Source: Methylophaga thalassica MP (GTDB taxonomy: Bacteria; Pseudomonadota; Gammaproteobacteria; Nitrosococcales; Methylophagaceae). From it: a stretch of DNA of 64,000 nt. Shown here in pieces: positions 50,703-64,000 of the stretch; positions within the stretch are counted from its first letter, which is position 1, and every line of letters begins with the position of its first letter. Location: contig NZ_AFIG01000001.1 in the NCBI RefSeq assembly GCF_000214595.1, positions 124,001 to 188,000 of the forward strand, given 5' to 3'. Position numbers and translations under genes: made by a program. The notes under the pieces were generated by a model. The model was not told the DNA's origin. It made no database searches and was given only the letters and a program-made list of their open reading frames with translations.

Positions 50703-52070
50703 TTACACTCCTGGTTCTGGATTAGCCAATTTATTTGGCACGTCACTTGATGTTATTGCTGGTACGCCATTCGCTTCTGGATATGGTTTAGCAATGATTT
50801 CTACTTCATCTAAGCCCAGCTCTTCAGCTGCTTTAGGTACACGTAATGCATTAGCTTTTTTCAGTACCCAAGAGATCGCATAACCTGGGATGAAGCCAAC
50901 TGCAGCCATTACGATGGCACCAATGGTTTGACCGACAAAACTGATAGGTGGCAAATCACCCACATTCGGCATGCCATAAGCAAATACGCCCACTAAGAAC
51001 ACAGCCCACACACCGGTGAAGCCATGAACTGCTACAGCACCTACTGCATCATCAATACCAAAGTTTTCAACGATTTTCGCGACTTTAACTGCCATGATAC
51101 CGGTCACTACAGCAATGATGAACGCTAATTCAGGATCATAAAGATCTAAACCAGCTGCTACTGAGATGATACCGACCAGACCACCAGACATTGTCCAGAA
51201 TGGGTCACGGCTAGCCATGTAACAACCAAGTACACCACCCGCAAAGCCCATCAGCGTATTGAATGCAAACGCAGATAAGTTAGTTGGGTTGTTATAAATA
51301 ATTGTCCAGCCTGTTTCGCCACCGTTGAAAATGATACAGCCACCCAGGAATCCGAAGAAACCAAAGATAATCATCATCAGACCGATTAATGTCATCGGTA
51401 AGCTATGTGGTGCGATAGTTTGAGCCACACCGTTGATGAATTTACCCACACGTGGACCTAAGTTAATCAGTACACCCAATGTGAAGAAACCAGCGACAGC
51501 GTGAACCACACCTGATGCGCCAACATCGTGATAGCCCAACTTCGTCAGTAACCAACCATCTGGATGCCAACCCCAGGCACCGGCCAGAATCCAGACCACG
51601 CTACCCAGGAATACAGTCAGAATCAAAAACGCACTGACACGAATCCGTTCGATAACGGCACCGGACAAGATCGAACCGGTTGTGGCACCGAACATGGCAA
51701 ACGCTGCCCAGAAAATACCTGTGCCCATATCGGTAACATCAGGTCCCATGCTTTTCGCCCAAGGTAATGCACCTGCAGCATCAATTGGAATAAAGCCGTT
51801 CGGGAAAGCGTTATAAATCCACCAGCCAAACAAATAAAACGTGGGAATAATGACCGCTAAAGCGAGAATATTTTTAATACCTGCCGCTAAAGCATTTTTA
51901 CTACGTGAAGCCCCCATTTCGTAGGCCAAGAAACCAGCATGAATCATGATCATAATGGCGGTACACCACCAATAGAACACTTCGACATTCATAGACTGAT
52001 GCATTTGAAAAACCGCTTGCTGAGCATCGAGTGCCGCTTGCAAGGATTCTAGCGTTGGCGCATTGTCCAT
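50703..52070 (-). CDS. amt: Ammonium transporter (Amt family) in the ethanolamine operon
   Basis: Channel-like transporter of 455 residues with 11 predicted helices. The pore twin histidines are present at His190 (GVVHAVAGF) and His349 (AVHGFTG), and the Asp at 182 matches the conserved binding-site Asp of AmtB. The helix with GAVIERIRVSAFLI is typical. There is no cleavable signal peptide, and the N-terminal 30 residues are unusual in length and polarity. It lies 55 bases after eutC on the same strand. Likely work: recapture of ammonium released by EutBC, or transport of a related amine; no ethanolamine permease is visible nearby. Confidence 0.9.
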   Translation of the reverse strand: MDNAPTLESLQAALDAQQAVFQMHQSMNVEVFYWWCTAIMIMIHAGFLAYEMGASRSKNALAAGIKNILALAVIIPTFYLFGWWIYNAFPNGFIPIDAAGALPWAKSMGPDVTDMGTGIFWAAFAMFGATTGSILSGAVIERIRVSAFLILTVFLGSVVWILAGAWGWHPDGWLLTKLGYHDVGASGVVHAVAGFFTLGVLINLGPRVGKFINGVAQTIAPHSLPMTLIGLMMIIFGFFGFLGGCIIFNGGETGWTIIYNNPTNLSAFAFNTLMGFAGGVLGCYMASRDPFWTMSGGLVGIISVAAGLDLYDPELAFIIAVVTGIMAVKVAKIVENFGIDDAVGAVAVHGFTGVWAVFLVGVFAYGMPNVGDLPPISFVGQTIGAIVMAAVGFIPGYAISWVLKKANALRVPKAAEELGLDEVEIIAKPYPEANGVPAITSSDVPNKLANPEPGV

Positions 52071-52125
52071 CTTACTATCCTCTTATTAGTTAACATTAAT
52101 ACACATCCACCTTTATTGGTTGGCG

Positions 52126-52995
52126 CTACTTATCCAGCAAAAAGCTGGTTTGAACGGCGTTGCTATCAATAATCTTATCGGTAGAGCGATCCTTGATAGC
52201 AACGCCAGAACACTGGAGTCTGCGGGCCTCAGTCAGCAAATAAAGGCTTTTCTGAGCCGCAGCAAAATAAGAAAGTCCCGCCTTTCTTACATTGGAAATA
52301 CAGTTACGTTTGTCATCGGTCAGGCCACGTTTCGCCGCCCAGGTCAGATACAGACCCAAACTATCGGGTGAACTTAATCCCGGACGTTCGCCAATCAGTA
52401 CTAACACCGCTTTGGCATTTAAGGCTTCACAGACATCATCACCCACGGCAACACGACCTTGTTCGACCAATACGATGGGGGCTAGTGAGTAAGCGTTTTC
52501 ACTGCCTTGCATGGCTTGCACTAAGGTTTCAATAAACACCACAGCGTTTTCTTTAATAGCGGTGGCGGATAAACCATCGGCAATCACAATGGCTAAATCG
52601 TAGGGTTCTATGGCTTTGTGTGGTTTAAGTGCCGCAAGACTGGCTTCATCAAGCTGTCTGCCCCAGTCCGGACGTTGCAAATAAGTCATTCGATCCGTTG
52701 CCAGACTGTGCAGTACCAGAGGTGTTTCGGTGTTTAATACGGGGTATTTTTCAGCCAAGGCGACTAAGTCTTGCTGTAAGCCGGCAAAATCCAGCTCGGT
52801 ATGCACGGCATCACGTGCCTGGGCATGAGCTAATTGAAATTCGAGAGATTCACGGGTTGGTGTACTGACACCAGCACGACCCAAGCCAATACGGGCATCC
52901 GTAAACTCACGCAGACGACGCCAAGGATTATCCGTGACAACAGCATCATCCGTTTTTTTTCTGATAGGCGTGAGTCGTTCGGTCTTAACCATCAT
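52126..52995 (-). CDS. eutC: Ethanolamine ammonia-lyase small subunit
   Basis: With EutB forms the adenosylcobalamin-dependent lyase that turns ethanolamine into acetaldehyde and ammonia. The 289-residue product has FTDARIGLGRAGVSTPTRESLEFQLAHAQARDAVH, LAIVIADGLSATAIKENA, LVLIGERPGLSSPDSLGLYLTW and CISNVRKAGLSYFAAA. It overlaps the eutB end by 11 bases. An in-frame second ATG at 52992 is an equal start. Confidence 0.96.
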   Translation of the reverse strand: MMVKTERLTPIRKKTDDAVVTDNPWRRLREFTDARIGLGRAGVSTPTRESLEFQLAHAQARDAVHTELDFAGLQQDLVALAEKYPVLNTETPLVLHSLATDRMTYLQRPDWGRQLDEASLAALKPHKAIEPYDLAIVIADGLSATAIKENAVVFIETLVQAMQGSENAYSLAPIVLVEQGRVAVGDDVCEALNAKAVLVLIGERPGLSSPDSLGLYLTWAAKRGLTDDKRNCISNVRKAGLSYFAAAQKSLYLLTEARRLQCSGVAIKDRSTDKIIDSNAVQTSFLLDK

Positions 52996-54397
52996 TGGTT
53001 CCTGTGGCTAAGCCCCTGAGGGTGCCAGCAAAGGCCGGCGGTAACTGATTTGATAACTTGGCATGACTGGCATCGGTCATGATCTGCATTTTTTCCAGCC
53101 ACTTTTCGAACTCAGGTGAAGCACCTAAACCTAAGACCCGGCGCGCATATAGCGCATCATGGAATGAGGTGGTTTGGTAATTAAGCATGATGTCATCAGA
53201 GCCCGGAATGCCCATCACAAACGAACACCCTGCTGTCGCTAATAAAGTCAGCAGATTATCCATATCATTTTGATCGGCTTCGGCATGGTTGGTGTAGCAA
53301 ACATCACACCCCATTGGCAGCCCAAGTAACTTGGCACAGAAATGATCTTCCAGACCTGCACGGGTAATTTCTTTGCCATCAAACAGATATTCAGGGCCGA
53401 TAAAGCCAACTACTGTATTCACCAGTAAAGGATTAAATTTTCTGGCAACCGCATAGGCTCTTGCTTCACAGGTTTGTTGATCCAAACCGTGATGCGCATT
53501 GGCTGATAAGGCACTGCCCTGACCGGTTTCAAAATACATGACATTTTGACCGACCGTGCCTCGTTTCAAAGACAAGGCAGCTTGGTGTGCTTCAGCCAAG
53601 GTCGCTAAATTAAAACCAAAGCTGCTATTGGTTTTTTCTGTGCCACCAATAGATTGGAATACCAAGTCCACTGGTGCCCCGTTTTCAATACATTCAATCG
53701 TGTTAGTGACATGCGTTAACACACAGGATTGAGTAGGAATTTCATAGAGTGAAATCACTTCATCCATCAACTGCATCAGGCGAGTTGCCTGAGCCACATT
53801 GTCTGTCGCGGGATTAATGCCGATAACGGCATCACCGGCACCATACAACAGACCATCGAGAATACTGGCCGCAATACCATTAACGTCATCGGTAGGATGA
53901 TTCGGTTGTAAGCGTGTTGATAAGCGTTTGGGTAAACCAATCGTATTTCTGAATGCACTTACTACCCGGCACTTCTGTGCCACCAGAATCAAATCCTGGT
54001 TACGCATGATTTTAGAAACGGCGGCGGCCATCTCAGGCGTTACACCGGCGCGTATCTGACTCAGCATTTCACTGCTGGCTTTGTCTGATAATAACCAGTT
54101 ACGGAAATCACCTACTGTCATATGTGAAATGGGTTCAAACGCATTCACATCATGTTCATCAATAATCAGTCGTGTGACTTCATCTTCTTCATAAGGCACG
54201 AGGACTTCATTCAGAAATGTTTTAAGAGGCACTTCAGACAACAATAATTGCGCGACAGCACGTTGTTCTGCACTTTCAGCAATGACACCCGCCAGTCGAT
54301 CGCCCGAACGTGCAGGCGTGGCTTTTGCCATCAGATCGGCTAAGTCAGCGAACTGATAGGTCTTGGTGCCTAATTGGTAACGATATGTCTGTGTCAT
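52985..54397 (-). CDS. eutB: Ethanolamine ammonia-lyase large subunit
   Basis: Catalytic subunit, 470 residues, close to the usual length. Typical regions include NTIGLPKRLSTRLQPNHPTDD, GLLYGAGDAVIGINPATDN, VFQSIGGTEKTNSSFGFNLATLAEA, MYFETGQGSALSANAHHGLDQQTCEARAYA and VGFIGPEYLFDG. No microcompartment shell, EutE or EutA genes are present, so this is the short catabolic or nitrogen-scavenging type. It is first in the eutB-eutC-amt-small gene unit, divergent from a EutR-like activator. It needs adenosylcobalamin, for which cbiZ in this window may supply precursor. Confidence 0.97.
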   Translation of the reverse strand: MTQTYRYQLGTKTYQFADLADLMAKATPARSGDRLAGVIAESAEQRAVAQLLLSEVPLKTFLNEVLVPYEEDEVTRLIIDEHDVNAFEPISHMTVGDFRNWLLSDKASSEMLSQIRAGVTPEMAAAVSKIMRNQDLILVAQKCRVVSAFRNTIGLPKRLSTRLQPNHPTDDVNGIAASILDGLLYGAGDAVIGINPATDNVAQATRLMQLMDEVISLYEIPTQSCVLTHVTNTIECIENGAPVDLVFQSIGGTEKTNSSFGFNLATLAEAHQAALSLKRGTVGQNVMYFETGQGSALSANAHHGLDQQTCEARAYAVARKFNPLLVNTVVGFIGPEYLFDGKEITRAGLEDHFCAKLLGLPMGCDVCYTNHAEADQNDMDNLLTLLATAGCSFVMGIPGSDDIMLNYQTTSFHDALYARRVLGLGASPEFEKWLEKMQIMTDASHAKLSNQLPPAFAGTLRGLATGTNDG

Positions 54398-54576
54398 AAA
54401 CTGCTTTATTTCCGATTACTTGGAATAAATTTTGCCTTTAAGTAAACAAAGTTTCCTAAAATGAACTTGCGAGATTTATACCGGGTGACTATCGAAAATT
54501 GGCAAAAGTTTTTTGGGTTGTTATTCAGCAACTTATTGAAACAAATTGCATAATGAAAATGAAACAAGGGGAGCAA

Positions 54577-55545
54577 ATGAAAGAAGAAAATATAAAATTT
54601 GCACCAAAACAGAGCAAAACCGCTACGCGTTGGTGCGTTCTGGAAGCAGAAGATGTGGATGAACAAGCACACAATTTAAAAGCCTGGCAGCAACAATTTG
54701 ATCAAATCAGCCTGGGGCAATTTTATGGGCGTATTGAAGAGGTCATGTTTGAGCATGTTCACGCTTTTCGAGAGCACACCAGTCGTGCCGTTCGTCAGCA
54801 GTGCAATGTCTGGCCGAACGCGATCTGGATGGGCTTTGCTGTGGATGAAAAGTCATGTCGCATCAACGGGCATCAGGTAGAAAAGAACCAGCTAATGATT
54901 CGTCCTGGCAATACCCAGTTTGAACTCATTACACCTGAAGACTTTGATATTTTTGGTGTGGTGGTGAATCAGGACAGTCTGCAACAGATCGCTGAAAAAC
55001 AAGGCATTCTGCTTGATACCAACGTATTCGACTCGCCACTAAGAGTGTGGGAGTCACATAAGCTCAATCAGCTGCGGCGAGTATTAAACGAGGTGATATC
55101 CCCCGTTCAAAGTGATATCGCCAGACAGATACATGAGGAAAACCTGATGATGGCAATGCTTGAAGTCTTACAACAAGATGGGCCGATAACAGAAAAGCCC
55201 AGTTTTAGTAAACGTCGTGCAGTCGTTGAAAAAGTGACGTCTTACCTCGATGCCAACCCAAGCAAACACGTGACGATTACCGAGCTCTGTGATCTGGCTC
55301 ATGTCAGCCGACGAACACTGCAATACAGTTTTGAAGATGTGCTGGATATCAGCCCAGTGAAATTTATTCGAATGGCTCGCTTAAATGCTGTCAGACGCCG
55401 CTTGCTTCAAGGTTTGCAGGAAGATGAAACCATTGCGATGGTGGCTCAGCACTGGGGCTTTACCCATGCCGGGCAATTCACTCACGATTACACCGAACTG
55501 TTTGGTGAGAATCCTTCCATCACCATTTCACGTCGTCATAATTAA
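54577..55545 (+). CDS. eutR: AraC-family activator resembling EutR
   Basis: Regulator of 322 residues. The N-terminal ligand domain resembles EutR in segments such as LKAWQQQFDQISLGQFYGRIEEVMFE and RQQCNVWPNAIWMGFAVDE; the C-terminal AraC DNA-binding domain (about 220-318) has CDLAHVSRRTLQYSFEDVLDISPVKFIRMARLNAVRRRLL. I choose ATG 54577, which follows AAGGGGAG; earlier in-frame ATGs lack a site. It is divergent from eutBC-amt with a 179-bp control region, so it should activate that operon when ethanolamine and B12 are present. Confidence 0.87.
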   Translation: MKEENIKFAPKQSKTATRWCVLEAEDVDEQAHNLKAWQQQFDQISLGQFYGRIEEVMFEHVHAFREHTSRAVRQQCNVWPNAIWMGFAVDEKSCRINGHQVEKNQLMIRPGNTQFELITPEDFDIFGVVVNQDSLQQIAEKQGILLDTNVFDSPLRVWESHKLNQLRRVLNEVISPVQSDIARQIHEENLMMAMLEVLQQDGPITEKPSFSKRRAVVEKVTSYLDANPSKHVTITELCDLAHVSRRTLQYSFEDVLDISPVKFIRMARLNAVRRRLLQGLQEDETIAMVAQHWGFTHAGQFTHDYTELFGENPSITISRRHN

Positions 55546-57059: not shown

Positions 57060-58061
57060 TTAGTGCTCAGTCTGAGCCATTGTCCGAATTTTGTCGTTGG
57101 CTTCTTCAGTTCGATAAACCAGCTTACGCACCTCATCTGCTACCACTGCAAAGCCTCTACCCGCTTCACCTGCACGGGCTGCCTCAATCGCCGCGTTCAA
57201 AGCCAGCAAATTCGTCTGTTGGGTTATTTCGGTGATCACATCAGCGACGGTGAGGATTTCCGTCATACGGGTTTCTGCCCGCTGCATTTCTAAATTATGC
57301 AGCTCACGTGCACTGTGCTCATGGCTGATATTACGAATTGCACCAGCGGATTTGACGGCAATACCTTCTTCGTTACGTATGGTGGCAGCACGTTCACGAA
57401 ACCAGACATACTCACCAGAGGCCATTTTTAAACGGTATTCAGCCACATAGGGCGTACTACCTGTTTTATCGTTAATATGTTTGGTAAAGGCATCCAAGGT
57501 CACATCCATATCTTCCGGATGAATTGCTTTTAACCAACTGTCCCAACCATCTGGAAAGTCTTCCTGACGCTTATGCCCTAGTAATTGGCGGAATTGCTCT
57601 GACCAGATAATCACACTCTTTTCATCATCAGGATCGCCATTCACCAGGGTTAACATCCAGACGCCCTCTGTCAGTGCCGACTTTGCCAGATTGTTATCAT
57701 CCAACTCGCTCAACAGACGCCGATTTTCACTCTGCAAATGATCCATTTCTGAATAGACAGAAGACAGTGTCTGGTTCAACGAATCTGTTTGCTGGCGAAG
57801 CTCATTCAATTCTCGCTCAAACGCTTCGCGCTGTTGTGCCAAATGTTGTTGATGGGAGTGATTCAGTCGTTCGAGTTCCTCCTGATGCTCTTTTTGCAGG
57901 GATGACAGATAATCACCAATCCGTTCTATCGGAGCGCGTAAATAACCGTGCATCCAAATTGGCACACGGTTATATGGCGACTCAATCGTTTTATCGACGA
58001 CTGATAAAATTGACTCAGAGACATACTGTAAACGCCCAGTATTAAATAGCTTCCACCCCAT
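57060..58061 (-). CDS. Soluble PAS-domain methyl-accepting chemotaxis protein
   Basis: Short chemoreceptor of 333 residues with no membrane segment. An N-terminal helical region (1-60) leads to a long Glu/Gln coiled coil (about 60-125), then a PAS domain with PAC motif (about 130-250; [25 protein letters not shown]). The C-terminal 80 residues hold the hairpin tip that binds CheA/Che[37 protein letters not shown]. The usual long methylation helices are nearly absent, as in some cytosolic receptors. It lies 38 bases downstream of tdm on the same strand, suggesting a shared transcript and a link to methylated-amine metabolism. Confidence 0.85.
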
Positions 58062-58099
58062 ACAAGGTTTCCTTTTTTAAAGGTGATGAATACTGGAAG

Positions 58100-60424
58100 T
58101 TATGAAAGTAATCGCGCTCGCTTAGGATCATAAAACGGCAGTTTTACTACTGTGCCACCTAAACGTTTCTGAATACCGTCAAGCTTACCGACTTCCAGCT
58201 TTGTATCTTGTTTTGCAAACTCCGGGGCTACACGAATCATCGCAATTTGTTTACCTAACAAAGGCGAAAGAATGGCACTTGTCACAATGCCTACTGGAAA
58301 TCGACCTTGATATACCAAATCACCATGAGCTGCAGATTCTCCACCATCAAGAATCAGGCCAACTAATTTGTGTCGACTCTCCGGATTCTCCCGAGCCAGT
58401 GCTTCACGGCCAATAAAGTCCTCCTCTTTTGTACTTAATGGCACACTAAATCCGGTGCCCGCTTCAAAGGGAGTTACATCAGGACCGAACTCATATTCGG
58501 CCATGCTCAGGCCAGCTTCGACACGCAGCATATCCAACGCATCAAAGCCCATAGGCGCGATATCAAATGCTTGCCCGGCTTGCCAAATCGCATCCCATAC
58601 CGCTTCAGCTGCATCCGGATGACACCAGACTTCATAACCCAGCTCACCGGTATAGCCGGTTCTGGACACCATCAATGGCACACCATCCGGCCCACCTAAG
58701 CGGCCAATGGTGAAGTGAAACCATTTCAGTTTTTCCACACTGGTCTGACTTTCTGACGTCCAGATAATCTGGCTGAGTAAGTCACGGCTATTTGGTCCTT
58801 GTACCGCCAGATTATGAATCTGCTCCGTGGCATTACGAATACTGACTTTAAAGCCTTTTTCTTCCGCTTTTTCCGCCATCCACACCATGGTGTAACTATC
58901 ACCACAGAACCAGCGAAAAGCCTGATCAGCCATACGGAAAATGGTGCCATCATCAATCATGCCGCCCGTTTCCAGACAAATGGCTGAGTGAGCAATTTCA
59001 CCTACCGCCATACGCCGTACATTTTGTGTCAACACATACTGTAAAAAGGCCACCGCATCAGGACCGGTAATATCGATTTTACGAAGAGGGGTTAAATCCA
59101 GCACCGCCACCCGTTCACGACAGGCCAGATATTCCGCATTGGCGCCCCAGCCTTCATATTCAGCCGCCACCCAATAGCCGGCATATTCAATAAATTTCTT
59201 GGTTAATGCAGATGTACGGTTATGAAAACCGGATGTTTTGGTCATACGAGGGTGCTCCTCAGCTGTAATTCGGTGGGCAATGGAACGTGGAAAATGGTGT
59301 TCAGCCCCATATATGCGGACGTGGATATCTGTTGGAATCCAGCCATTTGCCGGATCAATATCATCAGGACAGGCCGATGACGCACAGATCAAATCTTTAT
59401 CTGCCCGCATCAACACATAGTCACCAGGACGTGACCAGGGCTCGTCCATAAACACGGTGCCACAAGGCTCAATGCCGGTATTAAAAAACAAGTTTATTGC
59501 AGGCCAGCCTGCACGTGGTTTGATGCCATAAGGCTTAAGCACATTATTGAAGTTTTCAGTACAACTGATATGACCAAAATAACCACTGTCTTCGTAATAT
59601 TTGGCCGTACAGGCAAATAAAAAGCTGTCATGACGTCCCACGGTATCCTGCACCACTTCCACCATCGACATCATATCCGGCCCCAAAAACCGCGAATGTA
59701 ATCCCGGTACAGGGTTGCTTAGTCCCATTACCGTACGTGTCGCGGTGGAATCCAGACCGACTTCTTTGCCCTGCTCCAACGCCTGTTTATCAAACACAAT
59801 AAAGTCAGAGCATTGCTTGCCTGATACATCGATGATCTGGATCCACTCGCCTTTTTTCACCTCATAAGTGCGGGCAGATGCTCGAGGAATACGTATTTCT
59901 TTTTTTACTTCCGCGAGCGGCTCTGGCAGAACTTCATCAATGGGTTCAGCATATTTCACCACCACTTTTAATTCAGTGGGCGGTGTATGCGCTTCAATAG
60001 ACATGCTGGGTCCAGCGGCGACAATCACCACCGTCAGATCGGCATAGGCTACGAATGATGATGACTCATCACCCTCCACACGTAATACCGTCTGATAATC
60101 TTTAGCTTGAATCTGCCAGCTCTCGAACTGCTTAACCAGGGCCTTGGCTGCTGTGCCTGTTTCCTGCAACTGTTGTTGAATATTATCGCCAGTCACAGGT
60201 AGACGGCTATCTAGGAGCTGTGGCGCTGCATGACCATCCATATCCAGCACAATTAACTCAGCCGCCTGCTCGCCATCAACACTGATGATTTCAAGTACAT
60301 CGCCTACCTGTAAACGCAGCCTGATGGCCTGCTGGCCTTCAACACGGAATTGTTGGCTATCTATGGGCGATTGCAGATTCAAAAATCTGTCTTCTTCCGA
60401 TTCTTCTTTAATCATTTCTAGCAT
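58100..60424 (-). CDS. tdm: Trimethylamine-N-oxide demethylase Tdm
   Basis: Converts trimethylamine N-oxide to dimethylamine and formaldehyde; a folate-binding domain may capture the formaldehyde. The 774-residue product joins an N-terminal DUF1989-type region to a C-terminal GcvT-like tetrahydrofolate domain (about 400-770; RVAVLDLTPLRKIDITGPDA, VSRTGYTGELGYEVW, GFDALDMLRVEAGL). Three cysteines of the DUF1989 domain, Cys272, Cys288 and Cys352, have the spacing of the zinc-binding cysteines I recall for Tdm. The first 170 residues look like a decayed duplicate of the DUF1989 start (V..GD.L.I.. and V.KGEWIQIIDV). ATG 60424 follows AAGGTG. Tmm lies 3 kb away. Confidence 0.9.
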   Translation of the reverse strand: MLEMIKEESEEDRFLNLQSPIDSQQFRVEGQQAIRLRLQVGDVLEIISVDGEQAAELIVLDMDGHAAPQLLDSRLPVTGDNIQQQLQETGTAAKALVKQFESWQIQAKDYQTVLRVEGDESSSFVAYADLTVVIVAAGPSMSIEAHTPPTELKVVVKYAEPIDEVLPEPLAEVKKEIRIPRASARTYEVKKGEWIQIIDVSGKQCSDFIVFDKQALEQGKEVGLDSTATRTVMGLSNPVPGLHSRFLGPDMMSMVEVVQDTVGRHDSFLFACTAKYYEDSGYFGHISCTENFNNVLKPYGIKPRAGWPAINLFFNTGIEPCGTVFMDEPWSRPGDYVLMRADKDLICASSACPDDIDPANGWIPTDIHVRIYGAEHHFPRSIAHRITAEEHPRMTKTSGFHNRTSALTKKFIEYAGYWVAAEYEGWGANAEYLACRERVAVLDLTPLRKIDITGPDAVAFLQYVLTQNVRRMAVGEIAHSAICLETGGMIDDGTIFRMADQAFRWFCGDSYTMVWMAEKAEEKGFKVSIRNATEQIHNLAVQGPNSRDLLSQIIWTSESQTSVEKLKWFHFTIGRLGGPDGVPLMVSRTGYTGELGYEVWCHPDAAEAVWDAIWQAGQAFDIAPMGFDALDMLRVEAGLSMAEYEFGPDVTPFEAGTGFSVPLSTKEEDFIGREALARENPESRHKLVGLILDGGESAAHGDLVYQGRFPVGIVTSAILSPLLGKQIAMIRVAPEFAKQDTKLEVGKLDGIQKRLGGTVVKLPFYDPKRARLLS

Positions 60425-60598
60425 GATTCACCTTGTTTTCCAGCCAAAAGCTGAAGTGATTTTGTTCATATCTGGTGCAGACCCATGAGATTTTGAACCA
60501 GAAAAGTGCACCTCATTTCGCTTCATCTCTGATACAAAAATAAATTTCTCTGGGTTTAACAATATTTACCTTCAGGAAACATAAATCAATCCTCCTGA

Positions 60599-60608
60599 TG
60601 GGTTACCC
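60599..60608. promoter_or_regulatory. TGGGTTACCC motif shared with the tmm leader
   Basis: This 10-mer differs by one base from TGGGATACCC at 63412-63421 before tmm. It contains a NarL-type heptamer start (TACCC). It lies 175 bp before tdm and 117 bp before the kinase gene. Candidate site for the NarL-like regulator at 61892; the link is inference. Confidence 0.4.
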
Positions 60609-60641
60609 CATTGGTTATAAACCAGCAAAAATCGAATGAAA

Positions 60642-60657
60642 TGGCACAAAATCTGCT
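60642..60657 (+). promoter_or_regulatory. Candidate sigma54 (-24/-12) promoter of the kinase operon
   Basis: TGGCACAAAATCTGCT matches the consensus TGGCACN5TTGCW with one mismatch and has the invariant GG-N10-GC spacing. The start site would be near 60668, 58 bases before the kinase start. The local regulator is NarL-type and lacks a sigma54-activating AAA+ domain, so an activator would have to come from elsewhere. Confidence 0.35.
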
Positions 60658-60725
60658 GTCATATGACAAAACAGATGTAATACAGGCCACCTCCTTCGAG
60701 TGTGGACATTACAAAGGTAGTAAAG

Positions 60726-61895
60726 ATGCTCAATATCAAACTCAAAACTTGGATAGATGGACAATCCTGGTTTGGTGAAACAGTACGCGCTGTCACTAAA
60801 AAAAAGGAGTTGCCGTCACTCGATTTCAACGATTTAGCTTTTAAACTGGCTACCGCTGAAAATATCAGTGAAACGCTGCCTGCTGTACTTAAATCATTAC
60901 AATCACTTATTAACGATCTTTTTCCACCTGCACAACAGGCGGAACTGATCATTTTATTCAGCAACCCATCTACCTCAGAAACCTTTATGCACCATGGCCT
61001 GCATCAGGCGCCAGCAGCGAAACTGATGCAATCGCTGCATCATCTATTCACTGTGGGTAAAGCCCCCGAGTCCAACGATATGATGATGGTTGATGGCTTA
61101 ACTATCGCGCCCAGCCGTTTATTTGATCACGAGAACATGACCGTCTGGTCTTTATTTTTATTCCGTGATGCCGCGCCTAGTGCTAAACAATTAAAGTGGA
61201 AAACATCCAGCATTGAAAATACCTTATATAAAGGTCTACAAGCCTGGTATCACAGTGAAAGTAAATTAAAAAAAGCGCTGGAATCCGAGCGTGCCATGTA
61301 TGCCGCTGAGCTACATGACTCACTGGCACAAGTCTTGGGTTACTTACGACTGAAAAGCCTGAAGCTGGATAAACTTTGTCAGCAAGATGAATTCAGCTCA
61401 TTGAAACCAATTACCGAAGATTTAGCCTCCTACACCCAATGCGCTTATCATCAAACACGTGAACTCATCACATCTTCACGGTTGACCATGCAAAGTGACA
61501 ACCTGTCACAAGGCGTGATTAATTCCATTAAAGAATTTGAACATCAATCCGCCATCGTGTTTGAGCTGGATAATCGCCTGCCGTTGAATATGCTGTCACC
61601 TCAGCAGTCGATGCAAATGCTGTACATCGTTCGTGAAAGCCTCAGTAATATCGTCCGTCACTCTCATGCCACACATGCGCGAGTCGTGTTGCTGCTTAAG
61701 ACCAGTTCACTAATACATATTCATATCGAAGATAACGGTACCGGTATTAACCCTGAAGCGGCTCGCAGTGACAGCTTTGGTTTACAAATAATGAAAGAAC
61801 GTGCTGATCGCATCGGTGCATCATTAGTGATTAACAATCGTCCGGAAGGCGGAACCCGGGTTGATCTCAGCCTGGATTTGGAGGCGAATGAATGA
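60726..61895 (+). CDS. Soluble NarX-type sensor histidine kinase (HisKA_3)
   Basis: Kinase of 389 residues without membrane helices or signal peptide. Residues about 40-165 form a GAF-like sensory domain of low similarity to anything I recognise. A dimerisation/phosphotransfer domain of the NarX class follows, with His197 in YAAELHDSLAQVLGYLRLKSLKL, then a HATPase domain with RESLSNIVRHSHATHARVV, EDNGTGI and FGLQIMKERADRIGA. ATG 60726 follows AAAGG by 8 bases; GTG 60702 is the alternative. It overlaps the regulator gene by 4 bases. A cytosolic signal, perhaps an amine or its product, is implied. Confidence 0.88.
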   Translation: MLNIKLKTWIDGQSWFGETVRAVTKKKELPSLDFNDLAFKLATAENISETLPAVLKSLQSLINDLFPPAQQAELIILFSNPSTSETFMHHGLHQAPAAKLMQSLHHLFTVGKAPESNDMMMVDGLTIAPSRLFDHENMTVWSLFLFRDAAPSAKQLKWKTSSIENTLYKGLQAWYHSESKLKKALESERAMYAAELHDSLAQVLGYLRLKSLKLDKLCQQDEFSSLKPITEDLASYTQCAYHQTRELITSSRLTMQSDNLSQGVINSIKEFEHQSAIVFELDNRLPLNMLSPQQSMQMLYIVRESLSNIVRHSHATHARVVLLLKTSSLIHIHIEDNGTGINPEAARSDSFGLQIMKERADRIGASLVINNRPEGGTRVDLSLDLEANE

Positions 61896-62572
61896 GTGAC
61901 ACCCCTATTTCTGTGGTGGTTGTCGATGATCACCCTTTATTTCGTCGTGGTGTGGTCGAGTTGCTCAATGACAGTGAGGAAATGACGGTCATTGCTGAGT
62001 ATGACAATGCAGAGGCCTTACTGGACAATATCGAAAACACCTATCCGGATATCTTATTGCTTGATATGCAAATGCCCGGTAAATCAGGTTTGGGCGTATT
62101 AAAACAACTGCGTGAGCACGATAATCAATTAAAAATCATCATTATCACTGCCTGTAACGAACAGGATAAATTACTCGAAGCCTTACGTTACGGCGCCAAT
62201 GGCTATCTGCAAAAAGACACCCCGCCCGATGAAATTTTGTCGCAACTGATGTCGGTATTGCATGGCAATGTGGCGATGAATGCCGGTGCAGTCACCTCAT
62301 TAGCCAGCCATCTTCGTGAAAATAAAGATGATGAAAACAACCCTTCCAGCGCAATTCTGTCTCATATGACTGAACGAGAACGAGAAACCTTGTTTTATAT
62401 CGCCAAAGGGCTGAATAACAAACTCATAGCTCGTGAACTGGGCATCAGTGACGGCACCGTCAAAGTCTATGTAAAAAGTCTGCTGCGTAAAGTGAATCTG
62501 CACTCACGACTTGAGTTGGCTGCCTGGGCACATCGTAACCTCTCAGCCGAATTGCTGGATAAGGAAGTGTAA
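61892..62572 (+). CDS. NarL/FixJ-family response regulator
   Basis: Regulator of 226 residues. The receiver domain (1-125) has the acidic pair Asp12/Asp13 in VVDDHPLFRRG, phosphoacceptor Asp58 in LLLDMQMPG, Thr in IIITACNEQ and Lys in GYLQKDTPP. The LuxR-type helix-turn-helix (about 160-222; MTERERETLFYIAKGLNNKLIARELGISDGTVKVYVKSLLRKV) is notably similar to that of NarL. Since NarL binds TACYYMT heptamers, TACCC repeats before tmm and in the tdm/kinase region are plausible targets. Coupled by ATGA overlap to the kinase gene. Confidence 0.92.
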   Translation: MSDTPISVVVVDDHPLFRRGVVELLNDSEEMTVIAEYDNAEALLDNIENTYPDILLLDMQMPGKSGLGVLKQLREHDNQLKIIIITACNEQDKLLEALRYGANGYLQKDTPPDEILSQLMSVLHGNVAMNAGAVTSLASHLRENKDDENNPSSAILSHMTERERETLFYIAKGLNNKLIARELGISDGTVKVYVKSLLRKVNLHSRLELAAWAHRNLSAELLDKEV

Positions 62573-62574
62573 CC

Positions 62575-63354
62575 ATGACACTGTTGAAGTGGCCTCGCCG
62601 TCACCCGCAGACTCACGGCGAAGAGCCACAATTACTGCAACTATTTAATAGCCTCAATGATGTTGTGTTATTACTCGATAAACAGCATCAGGTGCAATTT
62701 ATTAATCAATACTGGCAAACCATTACGGGTATTCCGGTAGAAGAAACTGTTGGTCGGTTGTTTTCCGATTTTCTGCACCCGGAAGAAATCCCCAGCTGGT
62801 CACAACTGTTAAATAAGATTATTCCCTCACAGCATGAAACCGTCTGGTTTCGTCTGATCAGTGCCAGTGGTGAGCTGCGTTGGTGTGAAATGCGCATTCA
62901 GTCTGTGAATAAAGACCAACTCTATCCCCTCTCCGCGACCTTGTGTGATATCACGCCACAAGTGCGTAACGAAGAAGTCCGCCACGCCAGTCATCGCAGC
63001 TTACAAAGCCTGGTTGATCGTTTGCCTGCCATGTTGTATCGCTCCAGAAATAATGCCAGTTGGAGCATGGAATATGTCAGTGAAGGCTGCGAGCTCATCA
63101 CCGGTTACAGCGCAGAGAGCATGTTAAATCAGTCGCAAGTGTCGCTCGGTTCCATCATTCATCCGGATGATGCCACTCATGTCTGGGAAGAAGTGCAGCA
63201 ATCACTGGAAACATTTTCACCGTTTGATATCCATTATCGTTTAACCAGGGCAGATGGCACTGAAGTCAGCGTCCAGGATAAAGGCCGGGGGCTGTACTCG
63301 AAAAGCGGTATGGTACTTGGTGTTGAAGGCATTTTGTTACTCACTAACAAGTGA
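62575..63354 (+). CDS. Orphan double-PAS protein without an output domain
   Basis: Protein of 259 residues beginning 2 bases after the regulator stop. It has two PAS domains, at about residues 20-130 (VVLLLDKQHQVQFINQYWQTITGIPVEETVGRLFSDFLHPEE) and 142-258 (SMEYVSEGCELITGYSAESMLNQ.. SIIHPDD), each ending in a PAC-like strand. There is no kinase, GGDEF, HTH or chemoreceptor domain and no membrane helix. It is probably a sensory partner of the kinase upstream, feeding a second signal by protein contact; that is inference. Confidence 0.82.
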   Translation: MTLLKWPRRHPQTHGEEPQLLQLFNSLNDVVLLLDKQHQVQFINQYWQTITGIPVEETVGRLFSDFLHPEEIPSWSQLLNKIIPSQHETVWFRLISASGELRWCEMRIQSVNKDQLYPLSATLCDITPQVRNEEVRHASHRSLQSLVDRLPAMLYRSRNNASWSMEYVSEGCELITGYSAESMLNQSQVSLGSIIHPDDATHVWEEVQQSLETFSPFDIHYRLTRADGTEVSVQDKGRGLYSKSGMVLGVEGILLLTNK

Positions 63355-63391
63355 TAACAACCTGATTAGATTTATTTTTTTCAGGCTAATC

Positions 63392-63423
63392 TACCCCCTT
63401 TTTTACCCTTTTGGGATACCCAC
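63392..63423 (+). promoter_or_regulatory. TACCC heptamer array upstream of tmm (candidate NarL-type sites)
   Basis: Three heptamers in the same direction, TACCCCC (63392-63398), TACCCTT (63404-63410) and TACCCAC (63417-63423), are spaced 12 and 13 bp apart. Each fits the NarL consensus TACYYMT at 6 of 7 positions. The last is part of TGGGATACCC (63412-63421), shared but for one base with the tdm/kinase region. The array lies about 104-135 bp before the tmm start. Confidence 0.45.
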
Positions 63424-63526
63424 ACAAGAGGATTTCTCCCACAAAAAAAGCGAGCTATTTTGGTTATTAAGCGCTGTCGATTTTCGCAGCATGATTGACT
63501 AAATAACACTGTATGGAGAGACCCCT

Positions 63527-64000
63527 ATGGCAACTCGTATTGCGATACTTGGTGCAGGCCCAAGTGGTATGGCACAACTCAGAGCATTCCAATCCGCCCA
63601 GGAAAAAGGTGCTGAGATCCCTGAACTCGTTTGTTTTGAAAAACAAGCTGATTGGGGCGGCCAGTGGAATTACACATGGCGCACTGGTTTAGATGAAAAT
63701 GGCGAACCTGTTCATAGCAGTATGTATCGCTATCTGTGGTCAAACGGCCCGAAAGAATGTCTTGAATTTGCTGATTACACGTTTGACGAACACTTTGGTA
63801 AGCCCATCGCCTCTTATCCACCCCGTGAAGTCTTATGGGACTATATTAAAGGCCGTGTTGAAAAAGCCGGCGTCAGAAAATATATCCGTTTTAATACCGC
63901 TGTTCGTCATGTTGAATTCAACGAAGACAGCCAAACTTTTACCGTTACCGTGCAGGACCATACTACTGACACAATTTACTCTGAAGAGTTTGACTATGTT
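63527..64000 (+). CDS. tmm: Trimethylamine monooxygenase Tmm (flavin-containing), 3' end outside the window
   Basis: FAD- and NADPH-dependent oxidation of trimethylamine to its N-oxide; the Methylophaga enzyme also oxidises other amines and, in recombinant hosts, indole. Only the first 158 codons lie in the window. They show the FAD motif GAGPSG near residue 9 and [14 protein letters not shown] near residue 38, and match my memory of the crystallised Methylophaga enzyme. ATG 63527 follows GGAGAG at 63515-63520. It lies 172 bp after the double-PAS gene with no clear terminator between, so both read-through and a private promoter are possible. Confidence 0.96.

Follow-up and report, generated by a model that had tools for sequence, protein, structure and literature searches.

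How does Methylophaga control the oxidation of trimethylamine? The question is raised by a 64,000-nt stretch of Methylophaga thalassica MP (the window; the 3.26 Mb genome is labelled G000), in which the genes for trimethylamine monooxygenase (tmm) and trimethylamine N-oxide demethylase (tdm) enclose a NarX-type histidine kinase, a NarL-type response regulator and a double-PAS protein, together referred to as the trio. The favoured reading, with a probability of about 0.75, is that the three proteins form a NarXL-derived two-component system, with a separate receptor of double-PAS type, that is dedicated to the oxidative trimethylamine pathway and switches it on through common control of tmm, tdm and the dmm genes. 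This reading is carried by the observed conservation of the trio, its co-occurrence with tmm, a sequence element shared by the pathway promoters and a conserved promoter upstream of the trio. G and L numbers label genomes and loci; L061 is from Pseudomaricurvus sp. HS19, L063 from Billgrantia endophytica and L065 from G200.

The trio and its linkage to tmm and tdm

Pfam and NCBIfam searches show open reading frames throughout, in the order PAS chemoreceptor (-), tdm (-), kinase (+), regulator (+), double-PAS protein (+) and tmm (+). The genes and their kinds agree with the original prediction, which had been made from the letters of the window. The features are as follows.

57060..58061, minus strand: PAS_3 plus short MCPsignal protein, 333 amino acids (Pfam)
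58100..60424, minus strand: tdm, trimethylamine N-oxide demethylase, 774 amino acids, DUF1989 + GCV_T + GCV_T_C (Pfam, NCBIfam)
60463..60479, plus strand: NtrC-like site 1, 9 of 12 consensus positions, 31 bp from site 2
60494..60510, plus strand: NtrC-like site 2, 11 of 12 consensus positions
60585..60610, minus strand: candidate operator facing tdm, 18.7 bits with the tmm-promoter profile
60642..60657, plus strand: sigma54-type -24/-12 promoter (GG-N10-GC) facing the kinase gene (pattern match, alignment)
About 60726..61895, plus strand: soluble NarX/NarQ-type histidine kinase, HisKA_3 + HATPase_c, 389 amino acids from ATG (Pfam)
61892..62572, plus strand: NarL-type response regulator, Response_reg + GerE, 226 amino acids (Pfam)
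62575..63354, plus strand: stand-alone double-PAS protein, 259 amino acids, no output domain (Pfam)
63412..63437, plus strand: candidate operator upstream of tmm, TGGGATACCC-N4-AAGAGGATTT (alignment, profile)
63527..64000, continuing past the window end, plus strand: tmm, trimethylamine monooxygenase (NCBIfam)
L034:7515-11433 (G000:C1:481515-485433): second kinase, NarL-type regulator and membrane double-PAS protein, beside dmmDCBA

The kinase may alternatively start at a GTG at 60702. Its stop codon and the regulator start share 4 bp, and 2 bp separate the regulator from the PAS gene, so that the three genes look like one operon. The complete tmm (456 amino acids), read on locus L001, scores 831.6 bits, above the cut-off of 675 bits for NCBIfam equivalog NF058570; Tdm is full length and falls just below that of NF053776 (1051.5 versus 1100 bits). 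No RNA family reached the Rfam gathering score between 56000 and 64000.

Among 57 Methylophagaceae genomes, 11 contain tmm. Full-length orthologues of the kinase and the PAS protein (E below 1e-100) occur in exactly these 11 and in none of the 46 genomes without tmm, and all of them adjoin tmm in constant order; the next-best family kinases score 5.9e-35 or weaker. In ten of the 11 family cassettes, as the block of tdm, trio and tmm is called here, tdm lies beside the trio, eight times at full length, in G037 as two frames and in G033 cut by the contig end; the G046 contig begins at the kinase, so that the tdm side is not visible. Named Methylophaga species carry the same locus; culturable examples with the cassette are M. 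sulfidovorans DSM 11578 and M. muralis. A scan of named genomes, which relied on two short peptide patterns and is blind to distant relatives, found tdm(-), kinase, regulator, PAS gene and tmm(+) in Pseudomaricurvus sp. HS19 (kinase identity 53%) and Billgrantia endophytica (33%); a Bradyrhizobium locus (L064, 26% identity) was dropped as unrelated. Of 369 sampled Gammaproteobacteria, 11 contain tmm, and besides G000 the trio is present there only in G200, with the same cassette gene order. Retention of this order in other families at 33-53% kinase identity is more than would be expected by chance. The original prediction of a regulatory trio dedicated to Tmm/Tdm, which a lack of conservation beside tmm or tdm was to have refuted, is supported by these 11 family cassettes and three cassettes of other families, and by the promoter elements that point to tmm, tdm and dmm.

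Altogether, 43 tmm loci were examined, 14 with the trio and 29 without it in the stretches read. The latter comprise nine loci of the class sample and 20 of 31 further tmm genomes of the G200 family (11 were left out), and in five of the 29 one flank of tmm is shorter than 3 kb. In the Tmm tree, 13 of the 14 cassette Tmms form one clade (99/95), with Billgrantia unresolved. The G200 Tmm falls inside this clade, apart from the Tmms of its own family, which indicates that the block moved between families as a unit. In G037 (L040), tdm and the EutR-like and amidotransferase-like genes are each split into two frames and eutC is shortened, all within 20 kb, a pattern that looks like assembly error rather than decay.

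The kinase and regulator carry the hallmarks of a HisKA_3 kinase and a NarL/LuxR-type regulator, with phosphoacceptor histidine, ATPase domain, receiver aspartate and helix-turn-helix all conserved. The phosphoacceptor H197 lies in AAELHDSLAQ. In the regulator D12, D13, D58, T86 and K108 are intact and the recognition helix reads TVKV-VK as in NarL; the catalytic residues of both proteins are invariant in all 11 Methylophagaceae orthologues. Among solved structures the regulator is closest to NarL (1a04), and its K191, V192 and K195, invariant in the 11 orthologues, align with K188, V189 and K192, the DNA-contact residues of NarL. Neither protein is an equivalog of its namesakes by NCBIfam score: the kinase obtained 170.5 bits versus 553 for NarQ and 133.7 versus 578 for NarX, and the regulator 203.5 versus 250 for NarL. 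The kinase also lacks the membrane segment and periplasmic domain of the NarX/NarQ nitrate sensors. No hydrophobic segment of 1.6 or more was found in the kinase or the PAS protein, which indicates that both are soluble, as had been foreseen for the kinase. In the predicted kinase model (whole-model mean predicted local distance difference test score, pLDDT, a moderate 72.8), residues ~31-180 have pLDDT 84-94, and the N-terminus returned one GAF/PHY-type row in a fold comparison (6et7; Z 10.1, 142 residues, root mean square deviation 3.4). The N-terminal domain is therefore predicted to be GAF/PHY-like. The third protein has two PAS domains, PAS families being its only Pfam matches, and no recognised output domain; its model is of low confidence (mean pLDDT 68.6).

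A shared candidate operator, a probably nitrogen-gated promoter and a second set at dmm

A 26-bp operator profile was built from six tmm promoters alone and scanned on the window and other G000 DNA. Outside the training sites, its best match in the window scores 18.7 bits and faces tdm from within the tdm-kinase gap; on L034 the best match reaches 21.6 bits, with its start 89 bp before dmmD. The highest score in a further 400 kb of G000 (20 stretches of 20 kb) is 17.3 bits, inside a gene, and none of 100 resampled 64-kb windows reaches 21.6 bits (largest, 21.5). The tdm-facing site recurs in 12 of the 14 cassettes, with no more than three of 200 shuffles scoring as high. In 16 of 20 dmmD upstream regions the best match of the same profile stands in the corresponding place and orientation, in 14 of them with at most nine of 200 shuffles as high; the regions without an element in the matching place are L119 (G033), L120 (G032), L126 and L130. 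The element starts 115 bp upstream of the tmm start codon and mostly 71-130 bp upstream for dmm (88-89 bp in seven of the 20 loci). A profile from Methylophagaceae only, applied to the whole 17.2-kb Pseudomaricurvus locus, gave three matches that scored 9 bits or more: 20.2 at dmm, 16.7 at tdm and 15.8 at tmm; 200 resampled copies had a mean maximum of 8.1 and a largest value of 16.7, with three at 15 or above. No operator match over 14.6 bits was found at the 29 trio-less tmm loci. Two earlier approaches were set aside: TACCC heptamer counts, enriched in both intergenic regions, were superseded by the sharper 26-bp element, and a first cross-comparison of promoters gave a moderate signal and failed in Billgrantia and G200.

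The gma/mgd promoters of G000 are not evidently part of the putative regulon, the best joint-profile match there being 6.1 bits, on L036. A gene on L035 (L035:2163-4355) encodes a 730-residue flavoprotein, trimethylamine/dimethylamine dehydrogenase-like by family name, which coexists with the Tmm/Tdm/Dmm route; the gene is preceded, at a distance of 61 bp, by a weak match of 11.1 bits that resembles the operator. About 40 bp upstream of tmm (63473-63490) the alignment contains a short inverted repeat of the GCTG..CAGC type, whose shape seems to be kept while its letters vary between species.

The tdm-kinase gap measures 264-360 bp where both ends are visible. A sigma54-type GG-N10-GC promoter faces the kinase in all 14 cassettes, with 10-11 of 12 positions, and is the single match to this pattern in the window (expected 0.49). 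Upstream of it, a pair of NtrC-like sites 30-31 bp apart is present in 13 of the 14 (12 by half-site, G033 by whole-site score). G000 contains an NtrC gene above the cut-off, and its glnA upstream region has three NtrC-like sites 31-32 bp apart. The conserved promoter and site pair imply that the trio is probably gated by nitrogen.

The set beside dmmDCBA resembles the trio in composition. Like the sigma54/NtrC-like features, the common operator and the connection with dmm, it was absent from the original prediction. Its kinase (HK2, 607 amino acids) and its double-PAS protein (460 amino acids) each contain two hydrophobic segments. As kinase and PAS protein are both soluble in the trio and both membrane-bound in the second set, a joint action of the two partners is suggested. 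The second set accompanies the dmm genes in 15 of 19 dmmA-bearing family genomes, a count that includes G006 (where the dmmD copy adjoining the set and dmmA are on different contigs), G040 (split between contigs) and G044 (regulator beyond the contig end). In G054, G037, G033 and G032 the set is missing from dmm, and kinases of HK2 grade were not found elsewhere either; the last two loci lie at contig ends. In the same-species genome G054 (L117), all three second-set genes and a neighbouring Gcw_chp gene are missing, the dmm genes and far flank being otherwise alike. The kinase tree comprised 11 of the 14 trio kinases (HK1), seven HK2 and 17 of 20 fetched class kinases (L097, L100 and L102 were not included). 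The tree resolves HK1 (100/99) and HK2 (100/100) as distinct clades, the latter on the NarX/NarQ side. For the kinases, which thus lie on different branches, the idea that the two sets arose by duplication of a single trio was rejected.

Proposed mechanism and its alternatives

The following scheme would account for the locus. Under nitrogen limitation, NtrC and sigma54 would transcribe the kinase-regulator-PAS operon, as the promoter anatomy suggests. The cytoplasmic kinase, through its GAF/PHY-like domain, its PAS partner or both, may then read a pathway compound or its product. Phosphate would pass to the NarL-type regulator, as the intact catalytic residues suggest, and the regulator would bind GGGGTACCCCAT-N3-GAGGATTTTT upstream of tmm and tdm, as well as of dmmDCBA at its distant site in the genome. 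The steps from trimethylamine through the N-oxide and dimethylamine to monomethylamine would thus be turned on together.

Several results weigh against this reading. Taken in one genome the signals are insignificant: three of 100 Markov-resampled 64-kb windows reach 18.7 bits, the window has four sigma54-like sites of 11/12 grade versus about five in shuffles, and its single NtrC-like pair compares with 0-2 in shuffles. The case therefore relies on where the signals stand and on their conservation, and the Methylophaga sequences that contribute to it are related. The tdm-kinase gap of Pseudomaricurvus contains no NtrC-like pair, and in Billgrantia and G200 no operator was found at tmm or tdm despite the cassette. 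In G033 and G032, which have the cassette and no second system, the dmm upstream regions lack the element (best 0.9 and 2.9 bits), and the odds are slightly lowered on this account. The element is also present in dmm promoters of genomes with the second system only, where the binder could be its regulator (RR2). In spite of its PAS partner, HK2 falls with NarX in the kinase tree. Finally, class-wide relatives give weak matches in no clear pattern (best 18.1 on L165 and 17.3 on L167 with the joint profile, which reaches 17.8 in the 400-kb G000 background).

The alternative that survives best, although unlikely, leaves the pathway under control of the system and changes the signal to formaldehyde, redox state or oxygen rather than a methylated amine, like Paracoccus FlhRS. 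Tdm releases formaldehyde, haem and flavin are frequent ligands of PAS domains, and there is a weak match of the PAS profile to DosP (E 1.5e-4). Weighing against this alternative is the absence of full-length kinase orthologues from the 46 family genomes without tmm, even though members of the Methylophagaceae make formaldehyde from methanol. As for the precedent, in the parts of the paper available FlhRS responds to formaldehyde and controls methanol and methylamine dehydrogenases (PMC8879981).

Less probable again is repression, with the regulator keeping tmm and tdm off until a ligand appears, like TmoR for Ruegeria tmm. NarL-type regulators both activate and repress. The distance of the element from the tmm and dmm start codons leaves room for a downstream promoter, which is only suggestive of activation. 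In Ruegeria, the available text describes TmoR as a strong and TmaR as a mild repressor of tmm (PMC13390433).

It is improbable that the shared element is bound by RR2 instead of the trio regulator (RR1), with RR1 acting on other targets. Such an arrangement would fit the element-bearing dmm promoters of RR2 genomes without tmm (L048-L050, L053), and the lack of the element at dmm in G033 and G032, which have RR1 and no second system. It is opposed by G054 and G037, which have RR1 and no second set or HK2-grade kinase, and keep the element at tmm, tdm and dmm; here the first regulator may serve the dmm element. The 17-kb Pseudomaricurvus locus, searched as a locus rather than as a whole genome, likewise has the RR1 trio only. 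Hitch-hiking of a trio that controls something else, kept beside tmm and tdm by common transfer, is very unlikely. In its favour, the block clearly moves as a unit and the second, differently descended trio is missing from four of the 19 dmmA genomes. Against it, tmm and tdm share their element with the dmm operon, which is not linked to them, Pseudomaricurvus has the element at each of the three, and even with kinases only 33% identical the trio still stands between the two divergent target genes.

Relatives, known systems and neighbouring genes

The class sample gave 28 further kinase matches, and the surroundings of 24 were read (G123, G418 and G390 were left out, and G263 is represented by a 4.4-kb contig only). 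A double-PAS protein follows the regulator in six of the 24 loci (L164-L169), in the same kinase-regulator-PAS order as in the cassette; the three PAS proteins read far enough (L104, L106, L108) contain GGDEF by Pfam, which the cassette protein lacks. Three of the six loci adjoin DMADH-, DmmD-, MgdA- or MgsC-like genes (42-76% identity), two adjoin Etf/DgcB-like genes only and one none of these; L164 has additional weak Mgd/GmaS/Mgs-like matches (26-31%). Among the 18 loci without an adjacent PAS gene none has the amine enzymes; 12 have NarG/NarK matches (one NarK alone, 27%) and six neither, including L170, where a double-PAS match lies ~6 kb away. A branch of the kinase tree (99/97) places all HK1 together with seven PAS-partnered class kinases (the six and L105 of G263), and ten class kinases without an adjacent PAS gene on the other side, where HK2 is the PAS-partnered exception.

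A broader reading, tentative and somewhat short of an even chance, is that a NarXL-like family spread over several gammaproteobacterial families is devoted to methylated amines rather than nitrate. Its hallmark would be a double-PAS receptor encoded as a protein of its own, which carries GGDEF in some members and is bare in Methylophaga. The two Methylophaga systems, soluble at tmm/tdm and membrane-bound at dmm, would converge on one operator joining tmm, tdm and dmm, the soluble one gated via NtrC and sigma54. Of the six double-PAS(-GGDEF) loci, the five flanked by etf/dgcB, DMADH-, dmmD-, mgd- or mgs-like genes are L164, L166, L167, L168 and L169, all in other families of Gammaproteobacteria.

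The L164-L169 modules are similar to the cassette in gene order, PAS pair and kinase position on the 99/97 branch, and differ in the GGDEF domain noted above. The trio resembles NarX-NarL/NarQ-NarP of E. coli in its HisKA_3 kinase class, NarL-type regulator, recognition-helix residues and adjacent genes. NarL and NarP share sites, and a putative sharing of sites by the trio and the second set would be a further likeness. Differences are the soluble kinase, scores below the NarX/NarQ/NarL cut-offs, the extra PAS gene and the adjoining amine rather than nitrate genes. NreABC of Staphylococcus likewise combines a kinase and a regulator with a third stand-alone sensory protein, and in the part of the paper available NreA inhibits NreB without nitrate (PMC8139620). 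Compared by description only, NreABC differs in target and signal and in its third protein, NreA being a GAF protein and that of the trio a double PAS with PAS families only; it may serve as the best working analogy for the PAS protein, with no family assignment. FlhRS of Paracoccus denitrificans, also compared by description, shares two-component control of one-carbon and methylamine oxidation, and differs in its enzymes and formaldehyde signal, the available text mentioning no PAS partner (PMC8879981). In Ruegeria pomeroyi, tmm and tdm are likewise under the control of TmaR and TmoR, and TmaR acts on dmm as well; in the portion available of this June 2026 paper, TmaR is AraC-type and responds to a catabolite of monomethylamine, and TmoR is a repressor (PMC13390433). 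The trio domains differ from TmaR by Pfam, and the AraC-type gene of the window is EutR-like and lies beside eutBC.

The original prediction knew of no description of such a regulator. This agrees with the literature matches listed: no kinase-regulator pair for tmm/tdm was described among those in the full-text literature, subscription journals lying largely outside it, and the only tmm/tdm regulators described were the different TmaR/TmoR of Ruegeria, published in 2026 (PMC13390433, available in part). The main text of that paper does not contain the words "two-component", "histidine kinase", "LuxR" or "Methylophaga", and the available portions of PMC4543880 and PMC6514802 mention no two-component regulator for tmm or tdm. 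Within this scope the trio regulator is undescribed, although it is built from components of known kinds. In the sea, trimethylamine and its N-oxide matter as sources of nitrogen and carbon, and Tmm/Tdm are their main aerobic route, the control of which was described in 2026 for one Roseobacter, via other regulators (PMC13390433, same portion). With a transferable cassette that unites the enzymes with their own sensor, a candidate operator of 26 bp and a putative nitrogen gate, it becomes directly testable in culturable Methylophaga which signal the cell measures, and the cassette could yield a sensor for methylated amines.

The PAS chemoreceptor had been placed between tdm and tmm; it actually lies outside tdm. 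Orthologues occur in five of the 57 family genomes (E<1e-180), always beside tdm, and are not beside tdm in L061, L063 or L065. At five of 14 cassettes, the chemoreceptor was rejected as a core part; gene content suggests that it is an optional companion in one Methylophaga lineage. The match covers positions 16-94 of 172 of the Pfam signalling profile, so that the C-terminal arm of the hairpin is missing; the domain keeps its tip, and related short frames of 242-251 amino acids occur in other Methylophaga genomes. This sparse distribution, the position outside the pair and the shortened signalling domain make the chemoreceptor the weak part of the original prediction. The proposal that the cell swims in response to these compounds has only the CheA-type genes of the genome in its support.

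At 50703-55545, eutB, eutC and an AmtB-type transporter gene follow one another, and the gene of an EutR-like AraC regulator (220 bits versus a cut-off of 319) diverges from them; these genes probably serve the use of ethanolamine as a nitrogen source. An amtB gene is also near tdm in L061, L063 and L065. Directly after tmm, nine of 11 family cassettes carry an EutQ-like cupin gene (L001:2893-3240), and related cupins are encoded next to tdm (L061, L065) or downstream of tmm (L063). On L036 (7900-8544), a helix-turn-helix cupin regulator gene diverges from an mgdA-like gene and is perhaps the regulator of the monomethylamine branch.

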